Assembly: GCF_900105945.1 (NCBI RefSeq)
Contig: NZ_FNSO01000004.1
Coordinates: 2,170,001 to 2,234,000, forward strand
Origin: Amycolatopsis tolypomycina
Lineage (GTDB): Bacteria; Actinomycetota; Actinomycetes; Mycobacteriales; Pseudonocardiaceae
DNA: 64,000 nt
Reading direction: 5' to 3'
The notes under the pieces were generated by a model. It saw only the letters and a program-made list of their open reading frames with translations. It had not been told where the DNA came from and did no database searches. Positions 12,747 through 53,200 of the stretch are shown here, piece by piece. How positions within the stretch are numbered: position 1 is the first letter of the stretch; the number at the start of each line of letters is the position of its first letter. Position numbers and translations under genes: made by a program.

Positions 12747-15700
12747 GAGCCCGTGGCCGTCGTGGGCCTGGGCTGCCGCTACCCGGGTGGCGTGCGCGGC
12801 CCGGACGACCTGTGGCGGCTGGTGGCCGAGGGCACCGACGCGGTCGGGGCGTTCCCCGCCGACCGCGGCTGGGACGTCCGCGACCTCGGCACCGGTCACG
12901 AGCGGCAGGGCGGGTTCGTCCACGACGTCCCCGGCTTCGACGCCGGGTTCTTCGGGATCTCGCCGCGCGAGGCCCTGGCCATGGACCCGCAGCAGCGGCT
13001 GCTGCTGGAAGTCGGCTGGGAGACCCTGGAACACGCGGGTGTCGACCCGGTGTCCCTGCGGGGCTCGCGCACCGGCGTCTACGTCGGCGCCACGGCCTCC
13101 GGCTACGACTGGCTCACCCGCGCGCACGGCGGCGACGAGGGCCACGTCGTCGCGGGCAGCGCGCTGAGTGTCCTTTCCGGACGCCTCGCCTACGCCCTCG
13201 GCCTGGCAGGGCCGGCGGTCACGGTGGACACGGCGTGTTCGTCGTCGCTGCTGGCGGTGCACCTGGCGGCGCGGGCGCTGCGGGCGGGCGAGTGCTCGCT
13301 GGCGCTGGCCGGCGGGGTGATGGTGATGGTCACCCCGGGCATGTTCGCCGAGTTCTCCCGGCAGGGCGGGCTCGCCGCCGACGGCCGGTGCAAGCCCTTC
13401 GGCGCCGGTGCGGACGGCACGGGCTGGGGCGAGGGCGCCGGGCTGGTGCTGCTGGAACGGCTGTCCGACGCCCGGCGGCACGGTCACGACGTGCTCGCGG
13501 TGATCCGCGGCAGCGCGGTCAACTCCGACGGGGCGTCCAACGGCCTGACCGCGCCCAGCGCGCCGGCCCAGCGCCGGGTGATCCGCGCGGCACTGGCCGA
13601 CGCGCGGCTCGAAGCGTCCGAAGTGGACGTCGTCGAGGCGCACGGCACCGGCACCACCCTCGGCGACCCGATCGAGGCGGAAGCCCTGCTGGCCACCTAC
13701 GGCCGCGACCGCGCCGAGCCGCTGTGGCTGGGCTCGCTGAAGTCGAACCTCGGGCACACCCAGACCGCCGCCGGCGTCGCCGGGGTGCTCAAGATGGTCC
13801 TCGCCCTGCGGCACGAGCTGCTGCCCGCGACCCTGCACGCCGACCAGCCCACCCCCCACGTGGACTGGTCGGCGGGGCAGGTCCGGCTGCTGACCGCCCC
13901 CGTCGCGTGGCCGGCGGGCGAGCGGGCGCGCCGGGCCGGGGTGTCGGCGTTCGGCGCCAGCGGCACGAACGTCCACCTGATCCTCGAAGAAGCCCCTGCC
14001 GACGACGCACCCGGCGAGCGCCGGCCAGGCCCGGTGCTGTGGCCGCTGTCGGCCCGCACGCCCGCGGCGCTCGCGGCGCAGGCCGGCCGGCTCCTGGACC
14101 ACGTCCGGACGCACCCGGACCTCGACCCGGCCGACGTCGGCTTCTCGCTGGCCACCACCCGGACCGCGTTCGAGCACCGCGCGGTCGTCACCGGCGACTT
14201 CCTCGCCGGGCTGGCCGCGCTCGCCGACGGCCGGTCCGCCCCGGACGTGCTCACCGGTGCCGTGCGGCCCGGGCGCGTCGGGTTCGTCTTCGCCGGCCAG
14301 GGCAGCCAGCGCGCCGGAATGGGCCGCGAGCTGCACGCGGCGGACCCGGTGTTCGCGGCGGCGTTCGACGAGGCGTGCGCGCTGATCGAGGCCGAGCTCG
14401 GGCAGCCGATCCGTGACGTCGTGCTCGGCGAGGACGACGACCGCGTGAACCGGACGCTGTACGCGCAGACCGGGCTGTTCGCGCTGCAGGTCGGCCTGCT
14501 CGCCGTGCTGGCCGCGGCCGGCGTCCGCCCGGACGCCGTCGCCGGGCACTCGGTCGGCGAAATCGCGGCGGCCTACGCGGCCGGGGTGCTGTCCCTGCCG
14601 GACGCGGCCCGGCTGGTCGCGCACCGCGCGCGGCTGATGGAAGCGCTGCCCGAAGGCGGCGCGATGGCCGCGATCGAGGCGTCCGAAGCCGAAATCACCC
14701 CGGACCTCGACGGCGTGGCGCCGGCGGCGGTCAACGGGCCGTCGTCGGTGGTGGTCTCCGGTCCGGCCGAGGCGGTCGACGGCGTTGTGGCGCGCTGGCG
14801 GGAGCGCGGGCGCCGGGTGCGGCGGCTGCGCGTGAGCCACGCCTTCCACTCGCCGCTGGTCGAACCGGCGCTGGCCGACCTGGCCGACGTCGCCGCCGGA
14901 TTGACGTTCGCGGCACCCCGCCTGCTCTGGGCCGGGGCACTGACCGGCGACCTGGTGGAGACGCCGGACGCGGGGTACTGGCCCGCGCAGGCAAGGCAGG
15001 CCGTGCGGTTCGCCGATGCCGTGGAAACCCTGACGGCGCACGGTGTTTCGGTCGTCCTGGAGCTCGGCCCGGACGGGACGCTGTCGGCCATGGACACCGG
15101 CGCCGACGCCGTGTTCGTGCCCCTGCTGCGCCGCGACACCCCGCTCGTGACTGCGCTGGCGAAGGCGCACGTCCACGGCGTCGACGTCGACTGGCAGGCC
15201 GTCCTCGGCGGGCGGCGGACCACGCTGCCCACGTACGCGTTCCAGCGGGACCGCTACTGGCCGGACGGTCCGGTGGCTGCCACGGCACCGGACTCCCGGC
15301 TCTGGACCGCGGTCGAGCGGGGCGACGTCACCGCGCTGGCCGCGGAGCTGGCCGCCCCGGCCGAGCCGCTGCGCGAGGTGCTGCCCGCCCTGGCGGCCTG
15401 GCGGCGGCGCGAACGGGCCGACGCGGAGACGGCGAACCTGCGCTACCGCGTCACCTGGACCCCGATCGCCGAACCGGCACCGGCCACGCTGTCCGGCACC
15501 TGGCTGCTGGTGGGCGAAGCCCCCGACGTCGAGGCCGCCCTCCGCACGCACGGCGCGGACGTCCGCACGGTCGACCCCGCCGGGCTCGAGGTCGCCACCC
15601 TGCCGGACGTCGACGGCGTCGTGTCCGTGCTGTCCTGCACGGAGAACCTGACCCTGGTCCAGGCGCTGGGTGCGACCGGGATCGGTGCGCCGCTGTGGCT

Positions 15701-50200: not shown

Positions 50201-53200
50201 CGGAAGTCTCCCCGGTCTTCGCGGCCCGGCTGGCCGAGTGCGCGGCCGCCCTCTCTCCGTACGTACACCTCGATTTGGAGGAACTCGAATCGGCCGACGT
50301 GGTCCAGCCCGCCTTGTGGGCCGTGATGGTGTCGCTGGCCGAGGTCTGGCGAGCGGCCGGAGTACGGCCGGACGCGGTGGTCGGGCACTCCCAGGGTGAG
50401 ATCGCGGCAGCAGTGGTCTCCGGCGCACTGTCCCTTGAGGACGGTGCCAGAGTAGTCGCACTCCGCAGCAAGGTCCTGACCGCGTTGGCCGGCCGCGGCG
50501 GGATGATGTCGGTCGCCGAACCCGCGGCGGCTGTGCGTGCACGCATCGCTCCCTGGGGCGAGCGGTTGTCGGTGGCCGCGGTCAACGGTCCTCAGTCCAC
50601 TGTGGTCTCCGGAGAGCCGGAAGCCTTGCGGGAACTGGCAGAGAGCGCCGATGTGCGCACCCGGATGATCCCGGTGGACTACGCCTCCCACTCGGCCCAG
50701 GTCGACGCCCTGCGGGAGGAGATCGAAGAAGTCCTGGCCGGGATCGAGCCGCGTGAGGCGGAGATTCCCATGGTCTCGGCGATGACGGGCGAGTGGCTCA
50801 CCGGCTCGGAACTCGACCCGGCGTACTGGGCGGCCAGCCTCCGCGAACCCGTCGAGTTCGAGCGGGCGATCCGCGTCCTCGGCGAGTCGGGGCACGACGT
50901 CTTCGTCGAAACGTCCCCGCACGCGGTGCTCACCGGCGCGATCGCCGACACCCTCGACGACCCGGTCGTCACCGGCACCCTCCGCCGCGACGACGGTGGC
51001 GCCCAGCGGCTGCTCACCTCCCTCGGCGAGGCCTTCGTCCACGGCGTGCCGGTCGACTGGACTTCGGTGCTGCGGCCCGGCCGGCCCGTGCCCTTGCCGA
51101 CGTACGCCTTCCGGCGCAAGCGGTTCTGGCCCGAGCCGGCCCCGCTCCAGGAAGCCACCGCGCGCGACAGCGGCTTCTGGGCCGCGGTCGACCGGGGTGA
51201 CGTCCGGGAGCTGGCCGGCACCCTGGACGTCGAGCCGGGCAGCCTCCGGGACGTCCTCCCGGCGCTGGCGTCCTGGCGCCGCCGCGAGCGCGAGGACTCG
51301 GCCGTGGCGGACTGGCGCTACCGGATCGCCTGGTCACCGGTCACCGAGCCGGGGAGCGCGGTCGTCACCGGCACCTGGCTGGTCGTGGCGGCCACAGCAG
51401 GTGACGCCGAGCCGGTCGAGCGAGCCCTGACCGAGCACGGCGCGCAGGTGACCGTCCTGCCGGCCACCGCCACCGACCGGGCGGCCCTCACCGCCGAGCT
51501 CGCGGGCCACCACCCCGACGGCGTGGTCTCCCTGCTGGCCCTGGACGAAGCGCCGGTGCCCGGATTCCCGACGGTCCCGGCCGGCTTGGCCGCAACGCTC
51601 GCCCTGGTCCAGTCCCTCGGCGACGCGGGCATCGGCGCCCCACTGTGGGTACTCACCCGCGGCGCCGTGGCCACCGGCCCGGACGAGGCGCTCACCAGCC
51701 CGCGCCAGGCCCCGGTGTGGGGCCTCGGCCGCGCGGCCGGGCTCGAGCATGCCGACCGCTGGGGCGGCCTGATCGACCTGCCACCGGAGTGGGACGAGAA
51801 GACGGCGGCGCGGCTGTGCACGGCGCTCACGGGCACCGAGGACCAGGTCGCCCTCCGCCGGACCGGGATCCTCGCCCGCCGCCTGGTGCGGTCCGTGCCG
51901 CGGCGGACGGCCGGGACGTGGCGGCCCGGCGGCACCGTGCTGCTGACCGGCGGCACCGGCTCGATCGGTGGCCGGGTCGGCACCTGGCTGGCCGGCCGCG
52001 GTGCCGAACGGGTGGTGCTGACCAGCCGGTCCGGGCCGTCCGCCCCCGGCGTCGCCGACCTCGCCGCCGACATCGCGGGCTCCGGCTCGCGCGTGGACAT
52101 CGCCTGCTGCGACCTCGCCGACCGGGATGAGGTGTCCGGGCTGCTCGGCACCATCGCCGCGACCGGGCCTGCCCTCACGTCCGTGCTGCACTCGGCCAAC
52201 ACCGCCTACCTGTCGCGGCTCGACTCCACCGACGTCGCCGGGTTGGCGGCCTCCCTGGGGGCGAAGGCGGCCGGGGCGCGGTGGCTCGACGAGCTGACCG
52301 CCGAGCTCGACCTGGATGCCTTCGTGCTCTTCTCCTCCATCTCGGCCACCTGGGGCAGCAACGACCACGGCGCCTACGCCGCCGGCAACGCCTACCTCGA
52401 CGCGCTGGCCGAACACCGCCGGGCCCGCGGGCTGCCGGGGACGTCGATCGCCTGGGGTGTCTGGGACACCCGCGACTGGGGGGCCGTCGACGCCGTGCTC
52501 GACCAGCAGCGGCCCGGCAGCGTCACGCCCGCGCGGCTCGTGCGGCAGGGGATGAACTTCCTCGACCCGGACCGCGCGCTCACCGCCCTCGGCCAGGTGC
52601 TCGACGACGACGAGACGTTCATCGCGCTGGCCGACGTCGACTGGGCGCGGTTCGCGCCGGTGTTCAGCGCCGCGCGGGAACGGCCGTTGCTGGACCTCAT
52701 CCCCGAGGCCCGGGAGTCCGAAGAGGACACTCAGGACGACGGCGAGCTGGCCGCCCGGCTCGCCGCGGCCTCGCCCGCCGAAGGGCTGCGGATCGTCACC
52801 GAGCTGGTCCGTACGCACGCCGCGGCCGTCCTCGGCCACGACGGGACCGGCGAGGTGCCCGCCACCCGGGCGTTCCGGGAGCTGGGGTTCGACTCGCTGA
52901 CCGCGGTCGAGCTGCGCACCCGGCTCGGCGCCGCGACCGGCGTCAAGCTGCCCGCCACCGTGGTCTTCGACTACCCGAACGCCGCCGTGCTCGGCGAGCA
53001 CGTGTGGACGCTCCTCGGCGGGGCGGGCACCGGCCACGCCGCCACCCTCGACGAGCTCGACCGGCTGGCCGCGTCGCTCACCCCGGCCGACGACGCGGCC
53101 CGCGCCGAGATCGCCGCCCGGCTGGACGCACTGGCCCGCCGCTTCCGGAGCCGTCCGGAAGCCGACCAGGCCGACGAATCCCTGCAGGCGGCCACCGCGG

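Follow-up and report, generated by a model that had tools for sequence, protein, structure and literature searches.

The natural three-module repeat analysed here, in a cis-AT type I polyketide synthase (PKS) of Amycolatopsis tolypomycina, has its closest described parallels in four systems, which we cite as they stand in the available parts of the papers. In erythromycin-type macrolides both the KS and the AT domains group by cluster and not by position, and in ansamycins and polyenes this is true of the AT alone (Medema et al. 2014; PMC4256081). A PKS exchange unit running from AT to KS has been described (PMC10661043), recombination between homologous modules of the rapamycin PKS leads to loss or gain of modules and leaves a fused module (PMC5663706), and skewed PKS repeats are known as GRINS (PMC9899208, PMC10394414). 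The window, the whole 64-kb stretch that was analysed, belongs to a larger cluster, located on contig C4 of the 10.36 Mb genome, and contains 14 of the 16 extension modules of the synthase. Six PKS genes, A to F, all on the + strand, carry modules A1-A3, B1-B2, C1-C2, D1-D3, E1-E2, and F1-F2.

Our reading, at a probability of about 0.7, is that an AT-to-KS trimodule block was duplicated, that concerted evolution later re-made parts of the copies, and that gene B lost one unit. Duplication of the block C2-D1-D2 / D3-E1-E2 is well supported; a third copy is partial and shifted, and was probably re-made by module loss. As in PMC4256081, domains group by cluster, here the AT throughout and the KS in part. 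What differs is that the KS are affected at matching positions of a three-module repeat (C2-D3 and D1-E1), and that this can be compared with a close sister and a distant cluster. Both the boundaries of the repeat and the unit that gene B lacks match the AT-to-KS exchange unit of PMC10661043, the switch falling between the second half of the KS and the linker, although no general tie of the KR to the next KS is seen. Like the rapamycin PKS (PMC5663706), the line appears to have lost a module by recombination between homologous modules, leaving a fused one, but here clusters of related species differ naturally in this way, and the fused module has since diverged. The process of repeat plus concerted evolution is thus already known, and the cluster, to the extent of our searches, is apparently undescribed.

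The modules concerned are B1 (12696..16985; KS-AT(malonyl)-KR(A1-type)-ACP, its KS outside the repeat), B2 (16986..21641; methylmalonyl AT), C1 (21705..26099; methylmalonyl, A2-type KR), C2 (26100..30701; malonyl, A1-type KR), D1 (30746..34930; methylmalonyl, A1-type KR), D2 (34931..39436; methylmalonyl, A2-type KR), D3 (39437..44095; malonyl, A1-type KR), E1 (44185..48540; methylmalonyl, A1-type KR), and E2 (48541..53250; methylmalonyl, A2-type KR). A previous sequence-only reading had described them as a three-fold macro-repeat of about 13.4 kb, B1-B2-C1, C2-D1-D2, and D3-E1-E2, each unit reading malonyl, methylmalonyl, and methylmalonyl with an A2-type KR. The motifs read as it said. Malonyl AT motifs (GHSVG, HAFH) are confined to B1, C2, and D3 among the 14 A-F modules, the A2-type KR motif (W..NDH) occurs at C1, D2, and E2, with an NEH variant at module A1, and the KR-type pattern A1, A1, A2 repeats in all three units. 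KR types were called by what we take to be the motif scheme of the literature. The KS cysteines lie at 13236, 17526, 22245, 26640, 31286, 35471, 39977, 44725, and 49081, and the distances between equivalent ones (13404/13337, 13760/13439, and 13226/13610 for positions 1 to 3) were reproduced exactly. As evidence of a repeat, however, the spacing is uninformative because the modules are all about 4.4 kb long: each three-module step in A-F spans 13.2-13.9 kb, including A1-B1 (13361), A2-B2 (13385), A3-C1 (13568), E1-F2 (13621), and D3-F1 (13908).

Four clusters were compared: that of the window (W), its sister (X, from G057; 94% to W over the end of gene F), one from the same genus (Y, from G022), and one from Sciscionella (Z, from G151, in which gene B was assembled from two contigs, C19 and C71). 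Over lags of 1 to 7 modules, mean between-module identity in W is highest at lag 3 for KS, AT, ACP, and both KR subdomains (KRs and KRc). Mean identities at successive lags are 77.2, 77.6, 80.5, 77.4, 77.4, 77.5, and 77.6 for KS and 66.9, 67.8, 73.7, 67.1, 68.8, 69.0, and 66.0 for KRc. When the module order was shuffled, the W peak was matched in 0 of 5000 shuffles for KS and KRc, with p values of 0.008 for KRs, 0.019 for ACP, and 0.030 for AT. The peak is also present in X and Y, and across five domains and three clusters 14 of the 15 tests gave p ≤ 0.05, the exception being the AT of Y (p 0.073).

The sequence repeat is clear between units 2 and 3. In W their KS identities are 88/85/85 at positions 1/2/3 against a background mean of 77.6 (sd 2.2), and they are mutual best neighbours at all three positions in KS and in KRc (76, 92, and 85). 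In the structural part of the KR, D1-E1 and D2-E2 are mutual best neighbours and C2-D3 is not, and in ACP only C2-D3 is (84). The two KR subdomains are 96 and 92% identical between D1 and E1, and 73 and 85% between D2 and E2. Unit 1 shows a clear relation for C1 alone (KS 81 and KR 76-79 to D2/E2; ACP 87 to D2 and 75 to E2), the KS of B1 being at background (77.5) and that of B2 near it (78.2). The B1 AT is 79-80% identical to those of C2/D3, a group to which the remaining malonyl ATs in the line, those of G1 and H1, are at most 64-65% identical. With B1, B2, and C1 as positions 1, 2, and 3, the expected order is the best of the six possible orders in W for KS alone, by 0.01 points, and ranks third for KRs and second for KRc, ACP, and AT; in X it is best for KRc and AT and ranks second for KS, fourth for KRs, and second for ACP. 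When the KS is shifted by one module (B2, C1, and C2 against D1/E1, D2/E2, and D3/F1), the expected order is best in both W and X, by 1.0 and 1.4 points, a margin largely carried by the C2-D3 pair.

KS trees were built from 49 rows, from 62 rows with Sciscionella added, and from 60 rows without Sciscionella ZB2 (a mosaic with ZD3) and ZC2 (a long branch). The group {C2,D3,F1} has support of 100/99 with 49 rows and 100/99.8 with 60; {B2,D1,E1} has 87/90 and 83/84; and {C1,D2,E2} has 71/95, 96/93 with 60 rows, and 96/93 with 62. With 62 rows neither of the first two groups is recovered, although both are compatible, and a tree slightly better than that of the free search exists. The predicted grouping of C1/D2/E2 therefore holds in KS, and also in KR (80/69, inside a 100/100 clade with module A1); that of B2/D1/E1 is weakly upheld, in KS. 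The predicted B1/C2/D3 grouping fares worst: it is rejected for KS with 49 and 60 rows (AU p 0.0067 and 0.0012), is neither recovered nor rejected for KR and ACP (p 0.097 and 0.175), and stands for AT only if the extra malonyl module of the relative is included (100/99). A strict KS-first register for position 1 is thus rejected in two of the three KS data sets (49 and 60 rows, not 62), and it is not the case that all positions of all units group, the pattern looked for in a tandem three-module amplification. Across species, the KR tree joins D1+E1 (99/98.6) and D2+E2 (92/99.4).

Because of the KS trees and the profile of F1 likeness, the repeat is best cut after or late in the KS. The likeness of B1 to C2/D3 begins at the KS-AT linker (14061, at about 14.0 kb), with a lapse from 15321 to 15741. 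At the other end, the KS of F1 (53345..54635, + strand), a third copy of the C2/D3-type KS, is clearly closer to C2/D3 in windows from 53660 to 54185, and the excess is gone by 54290; a weaker excess reappears in the KR (56915-57545), with other modules closer still in most windows. The best reading of the repeat is AT-KR-ACP-KS, running from about 14.0 kb, at the KS-AT linker of B1, to a point within the F1 KS (54.2-54.6 kb). With unit ends set by convention at module start plus 430 codons, unit 1 runs from after the KS of B1 to the end of the KS of C2 (13986..27390), as a partial and partly re-made copy; unit 2 from there to the end of the KS of D3 (27391..40727); and unit 3 to the end of the KS of F1 (40728..54635), all on the + strand. 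Boundaries lying after the KS, as in an AT-to-KS exchange unit, are found at the B1 linker, at the F1 KS, and in the B2 fusion, which switches over after 660 nt of the module. The three-fold macro-repeat of the sequence-only reading thus survives in its motif pattern and in units 2 and 3, while unit 1 is only partly a copy and the coordinates need a shift.

Paralogs within a cluster are closer than orthologs for the KS of C2/D3 and D1/E1 and for the AT. The KS of C2 and D3 are 88% identical within W and 89% within Y but 80% between orthologs, and those of D1 and E1 are 85 and 87% identical within W and Y versus 78-79 between orthologs. Ortholog-only KS clades for C2, D3, D1, and E1 are all rejected (p 1e-7 to 2e-76, 49 rows), and ortholog AT clades are rejected in six of six cases. 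Among the six KR ortholog clades, C2, D3, and E2 are recovered, D2 is not rejected, and D1 and E1 are rejected; for ACP, D3, D1, and E2 are recovered, C2 and E1 are not rejected, and D2 is rejected. The sequences suggest that homogenisation of the KS pairs C2/D3 and D1/E1 took place independently in two lineages and went further for the ATs. One tract probably records a conversion: a 680-nt tract of D1 (33371..34050) and E1 (46960..47640; both + strand) is 98.7% identical in W, with 373 identical nt from 33534 and 47141, and 83.8% identical in X and 74.4% in Y. The W E1 tract is 87.5% identical to X D1 and 82.5% to X E1, so D1 is the likely donor and E1 the probable recipient, although the identity may also be an assembly error in a repeat. 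In Sciscionella (G151) the KS of ZB2 (L122, C19) is closest to B2 as protein, and its DNA groups with ZD3 at 100/100, another converted patch.

Gene B has three modules in Y and, joined from contigs, in Sciscionella, and two in W. The first 660 nt of W B2 are 80.3% identical to Y B2 and 72.5% to Y B3, whereas its KR is 68.9% identical to Y B2 and 78.4% to Y B3, and its ACP plus tail 68.1 and 80.7%, respectively; B2 of the sister cluster X shows the same fusion behaviour against Y. W B2 thus joins the KS of one module of the relative to the KR-ACP of the next, for which a one-unit deletion is the most likely origin judging from these identities. In five of the six KS positions tested (60 rows), Sciscionella lies outside the other three clusters (A1 87/50, A2 98/96, A3 93/46, B1 93/76, and F1 93/61), and because of this the three-module gene B is the older state by parsimony. 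The register of unit 1 in W probably arose when a module was lost.

Several results weigh against this reading. With all 62 rows the KS group {B1,C2,D3} is not rejected (AU p 0.094). C2 and D3 differ in the structural KR subdomain (68%), and C2+D3 is not recovered, nor rejected, in the KR and ACP trees (p 0.38 and 0.26). The ACP tree rejects D2+E2 (p 0.008) and does not recover D1+E1 (p 0.37). The AT tree rejects C2+D3, D1+E1, and D2+E2 across species, which we read as later homogenisation. KR likeness is tied no more closely to the next KS than to its own in W and X (r 0.46 versus 0.58 and 0.48 versus 0.50), and once the unit 2/3 pairs are removed the correlation with the next KS is 0.06 and 0.10; of the three KRc correlation tests, Y alone leans toward the next KS (0.40 versus 0.31). 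A general rule that the KS follows the type of the upstream KR finds no support in the matrix correlations, and the shifted register rests instead on the two boundaries and the F1 KS. The KS of B3 groups with C1/D2/E2 (85/91) and not with D1/E1, which leaves the older unit 1 imperfectly in register. Finally, the F2 KS contradicts the branching order, since W, X, and Y together are rejected (p 0.004).

This last conflict leaves room for the most probable of the alternatives, namely that a two-module gene B was ancestral and that Y and Sciscionella share an inserted AT-to-KS unit, which we regard as possible but doubtful. A composite insert might explain why the B3 KS resembles the C1-type KS and why the KR of Y B2 groups with B1 (SH-aLRT 85), and the F2 KS itself places Y with Sciscionella; the outside position of Sciscionella at A1, A2, A3, B1, and F1 nevertheless makes three modules older by parsimony. 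Somewhat less probable, and in our view unlikely, is that no block was ever duplicated and that the modules arose singly, with the period of three coming from selection for a repeating product and gene conversion between modules of like substrate. Conversion is plainly active, the KR and ACP of C2/D3 have no firm grouping, and the KS of B2, D1, and E1 all follow malonyl modules, just as those of C2, D3, and F1 all follow modules with an A2-type KR. But the KS of module A2 also follows an A2-type KR and does not come out with C2/D3/F1 (a grouping that is not rejected, p 0.33), the B3 KS follows a malonyl module yet goes with C1/D2/E2, the KRs of D1+E1 and D2+E2 group across species, and a single block better accounts for the consecutive pairs in the same order and for the gene cut that both share after position 1. 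Plain tandem amplification, in which a KS-first trimodule was duplicated twice to give three equal copies with no major later exchange, agrees with the motif pattern in three of three units, the lag-3 peak, and the grouping of C1 with D2/E2, but is very improbable given the exclusion of the B1 KS from C2/D3 with 49 and 60 though not 62 rows, the inclusion of the F1 KS, the rejection of ortholog-only KS and AT clades, and a B2 that is a fusion where relatives have three modules in gene B. The tandem amplification first proposed therefore holds as a block duplication for C2-D1-D2 / D3-E1-E2 and is otherwise too simple, part of the likeness being later conversion and the unit 1 register probably a product of module loss.

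Under block duplication with concerted evolution and unit loss, a block of one acetate and two propionates (KR A1, A1, A2) would have been copied before W, its same-genus relatives, and Sciscionella diverged. The natural unit would be AT-KR-ACP plus the next KS. C2-D1-D2 and D3-E1-E2 would be its best-supported copies, with a third, older or more re-made, ending in C1. Recombination between equivalent modules would keep the KS pairs and the ATs alike within each lineage, with KR and ACP more often keeping orthology. In the W lineage, one AT-to-KS unit of gene B would then have been lost by recombination between neighbouring modules, giving the regular M-P-P reading three times over.

Gene ends cut the unit after positions 2, 1, and 1 (after B2, C2, and D3), as had been noted. 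It had also been proposed that docking sites were not part of the duplicated block. Docking segments at equivalent gene ends in the window are not especially alike, the C-D tails ranking third of ten pairs (z 9.8, range 0.2-11.9) and the D-E heads third lowest of fifteen (z 4.8, range 4.2-12.4), which agrees with that proposal. The gene cut after position 1 is, however, common to units 2 and 3, and a gene boundary that was copied with the block and diverged afterwards would also be possible.

The AT of B2 (window 18300-19600) has extreme GC and TA skews, 0.29 and 0.43 over 18328-19558. In the window lineage it has undergone 44 C>T changes, of which 39 are synonymous. Over the AT domain, 36 of 66 changes in the W lineage are C>T and three are G>A, whereas in the other 23 AT lineages the 1008 changes include 151 C>T and 125 G>A (Fisher p 2.5e-6). 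The C2 AT of W also leans to C>T (11 versus 1), and the B2 AT of the sister is the most skewed of its cluster but has no C>T excess (3 versus 5). As to an outside donor, the 14 matches in the window genome are the query itself and 13 others at ≤81%, and this origin was set aside. With GRINS thresholds of 500+ bp, >80% identity in the same PKS, and mean GC and TA skews >0.15, and with BLAST in place of the published pairwise alignment, four of 37 high-identity stretches qualify, two of them in the window: the B2 AT and the C1 AT (23248-23758; skews 0.17 and 0.35). The two window ATs are thus like GRINS as described in the available parts of PMC9899208 and PMC10394414, whereas the greater part of the repeat, with the D1/E1 tract, does not qualify as GRINS by those thresholds. 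A tentative idea is that the B2 skew was made in place, not imported, by a one-sided C-to-T burst on the coding strand, so that recombination, or exposure of the coding strand in an R-loop, at a repeat would create GRINS. If true, this would tie skewed PKS repeats to a concrete mutational process, testable in this strain pair.

Gene A starts about 720 bases upstream of the window and gene F ends at 64204. Pfam KS, AT, KR, and ACP matches occur in all 14 A-F modules, module A1 having been scanned without most of its KS, which is located before the window. The KR is the sole reducing domain from A1 to F1, and F2 has DH, KR, and thioesterase matches, so the line shows the repeated KS-AT-(KR)-ACP order, integrated AT, and terminal thioesterase of a cis-AT modular type I PKS. 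Downstream, one gene encodes a loading part KS-AT-ACP with a methylmalonyl motif and a fully reducing malonyl module (G1), and a second encodes another fully reducing malonyl module (H1). We infer a protein order of loading, G1, H1, A1-A3, B1-B2, C1-C2, D1-D3, E1-E2, F1-F2, and TE, with 16 extensions. By motif the KR of module A1 is A2-type, those of modules A2, F2, G1, and H1 carry LDD and are B-type, C1, D2, and E2 are A2-type, and the rest are A1-type. The product is most likely a polyol macrolactone with a thrice-repeated acetate-propionate-propionate stereopattern, and a propionate starter and a reduced tail would be expected. The ATs of modules A2 and F2 branch together as a separate clade and carry an FVAHS motif. 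Genes adjoining the PKS (window 64075-67554; L012:75-3554) encode an acyl-CoA dehydrogenase, a 3-hydroxyacyl-CoA dehydrogenase, and an FkbH-type protein that matches TIGR01686 with 364 bits against a cut-off of 146.65; because of these divergent ATs and neighbouring genes, modules A2 and F2 probably take a hydroxy- or methoxymalonyl unit. Between the DH and KR of F2 (61391-62129), a SpnB-type Rossmann match (61391-61853) is followed by a sub-threshold ADH_N match (about 61982-62129; 23.4 bits, cut-off 23.5), which hints at a decayed enoylreductase.

A literature search confined to open-licence papers found none describing this cluster. Aculeximycin was set aside as the known product, its cluster having 21 modules and using ethylmalonate according to the available part of PMC4210621. 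Weaker relatives occur at 44% in G055 and G008 and at 51% in G123. A Streptomyces celluloflavus draft (G351 C88, C82; L137-L139) has a related line with seemingly only 10 modules, in the order A1-A3, B1 (malonyl), P, P with a D2/E2-like KR, P, P with a D2/E2-like KR, F1, F2; its reading frames are broken in places and repeat collapse is possible. By KS motif, the A. tolypomycina genome has other large type I PKS clusters at C1 250-294 kb and at C4 4.58-4.63 Mb and 4.83-4.84 Mb.

The locus offers one line with a natural three-module repeat, a close sister, and two more distant relatives that apparently differ by one AT-to-KS unit. This set of clusters separates copying from conversion domain by domain: AT and some KS are kept alike, and KR and ACP drift more. 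The one-sided C>T burst in B2 gives a way to ask where GRINS skew originates. Gene B would be a natural example of a module that could be removed without breaking the line, which may be useful to PKS engineers.

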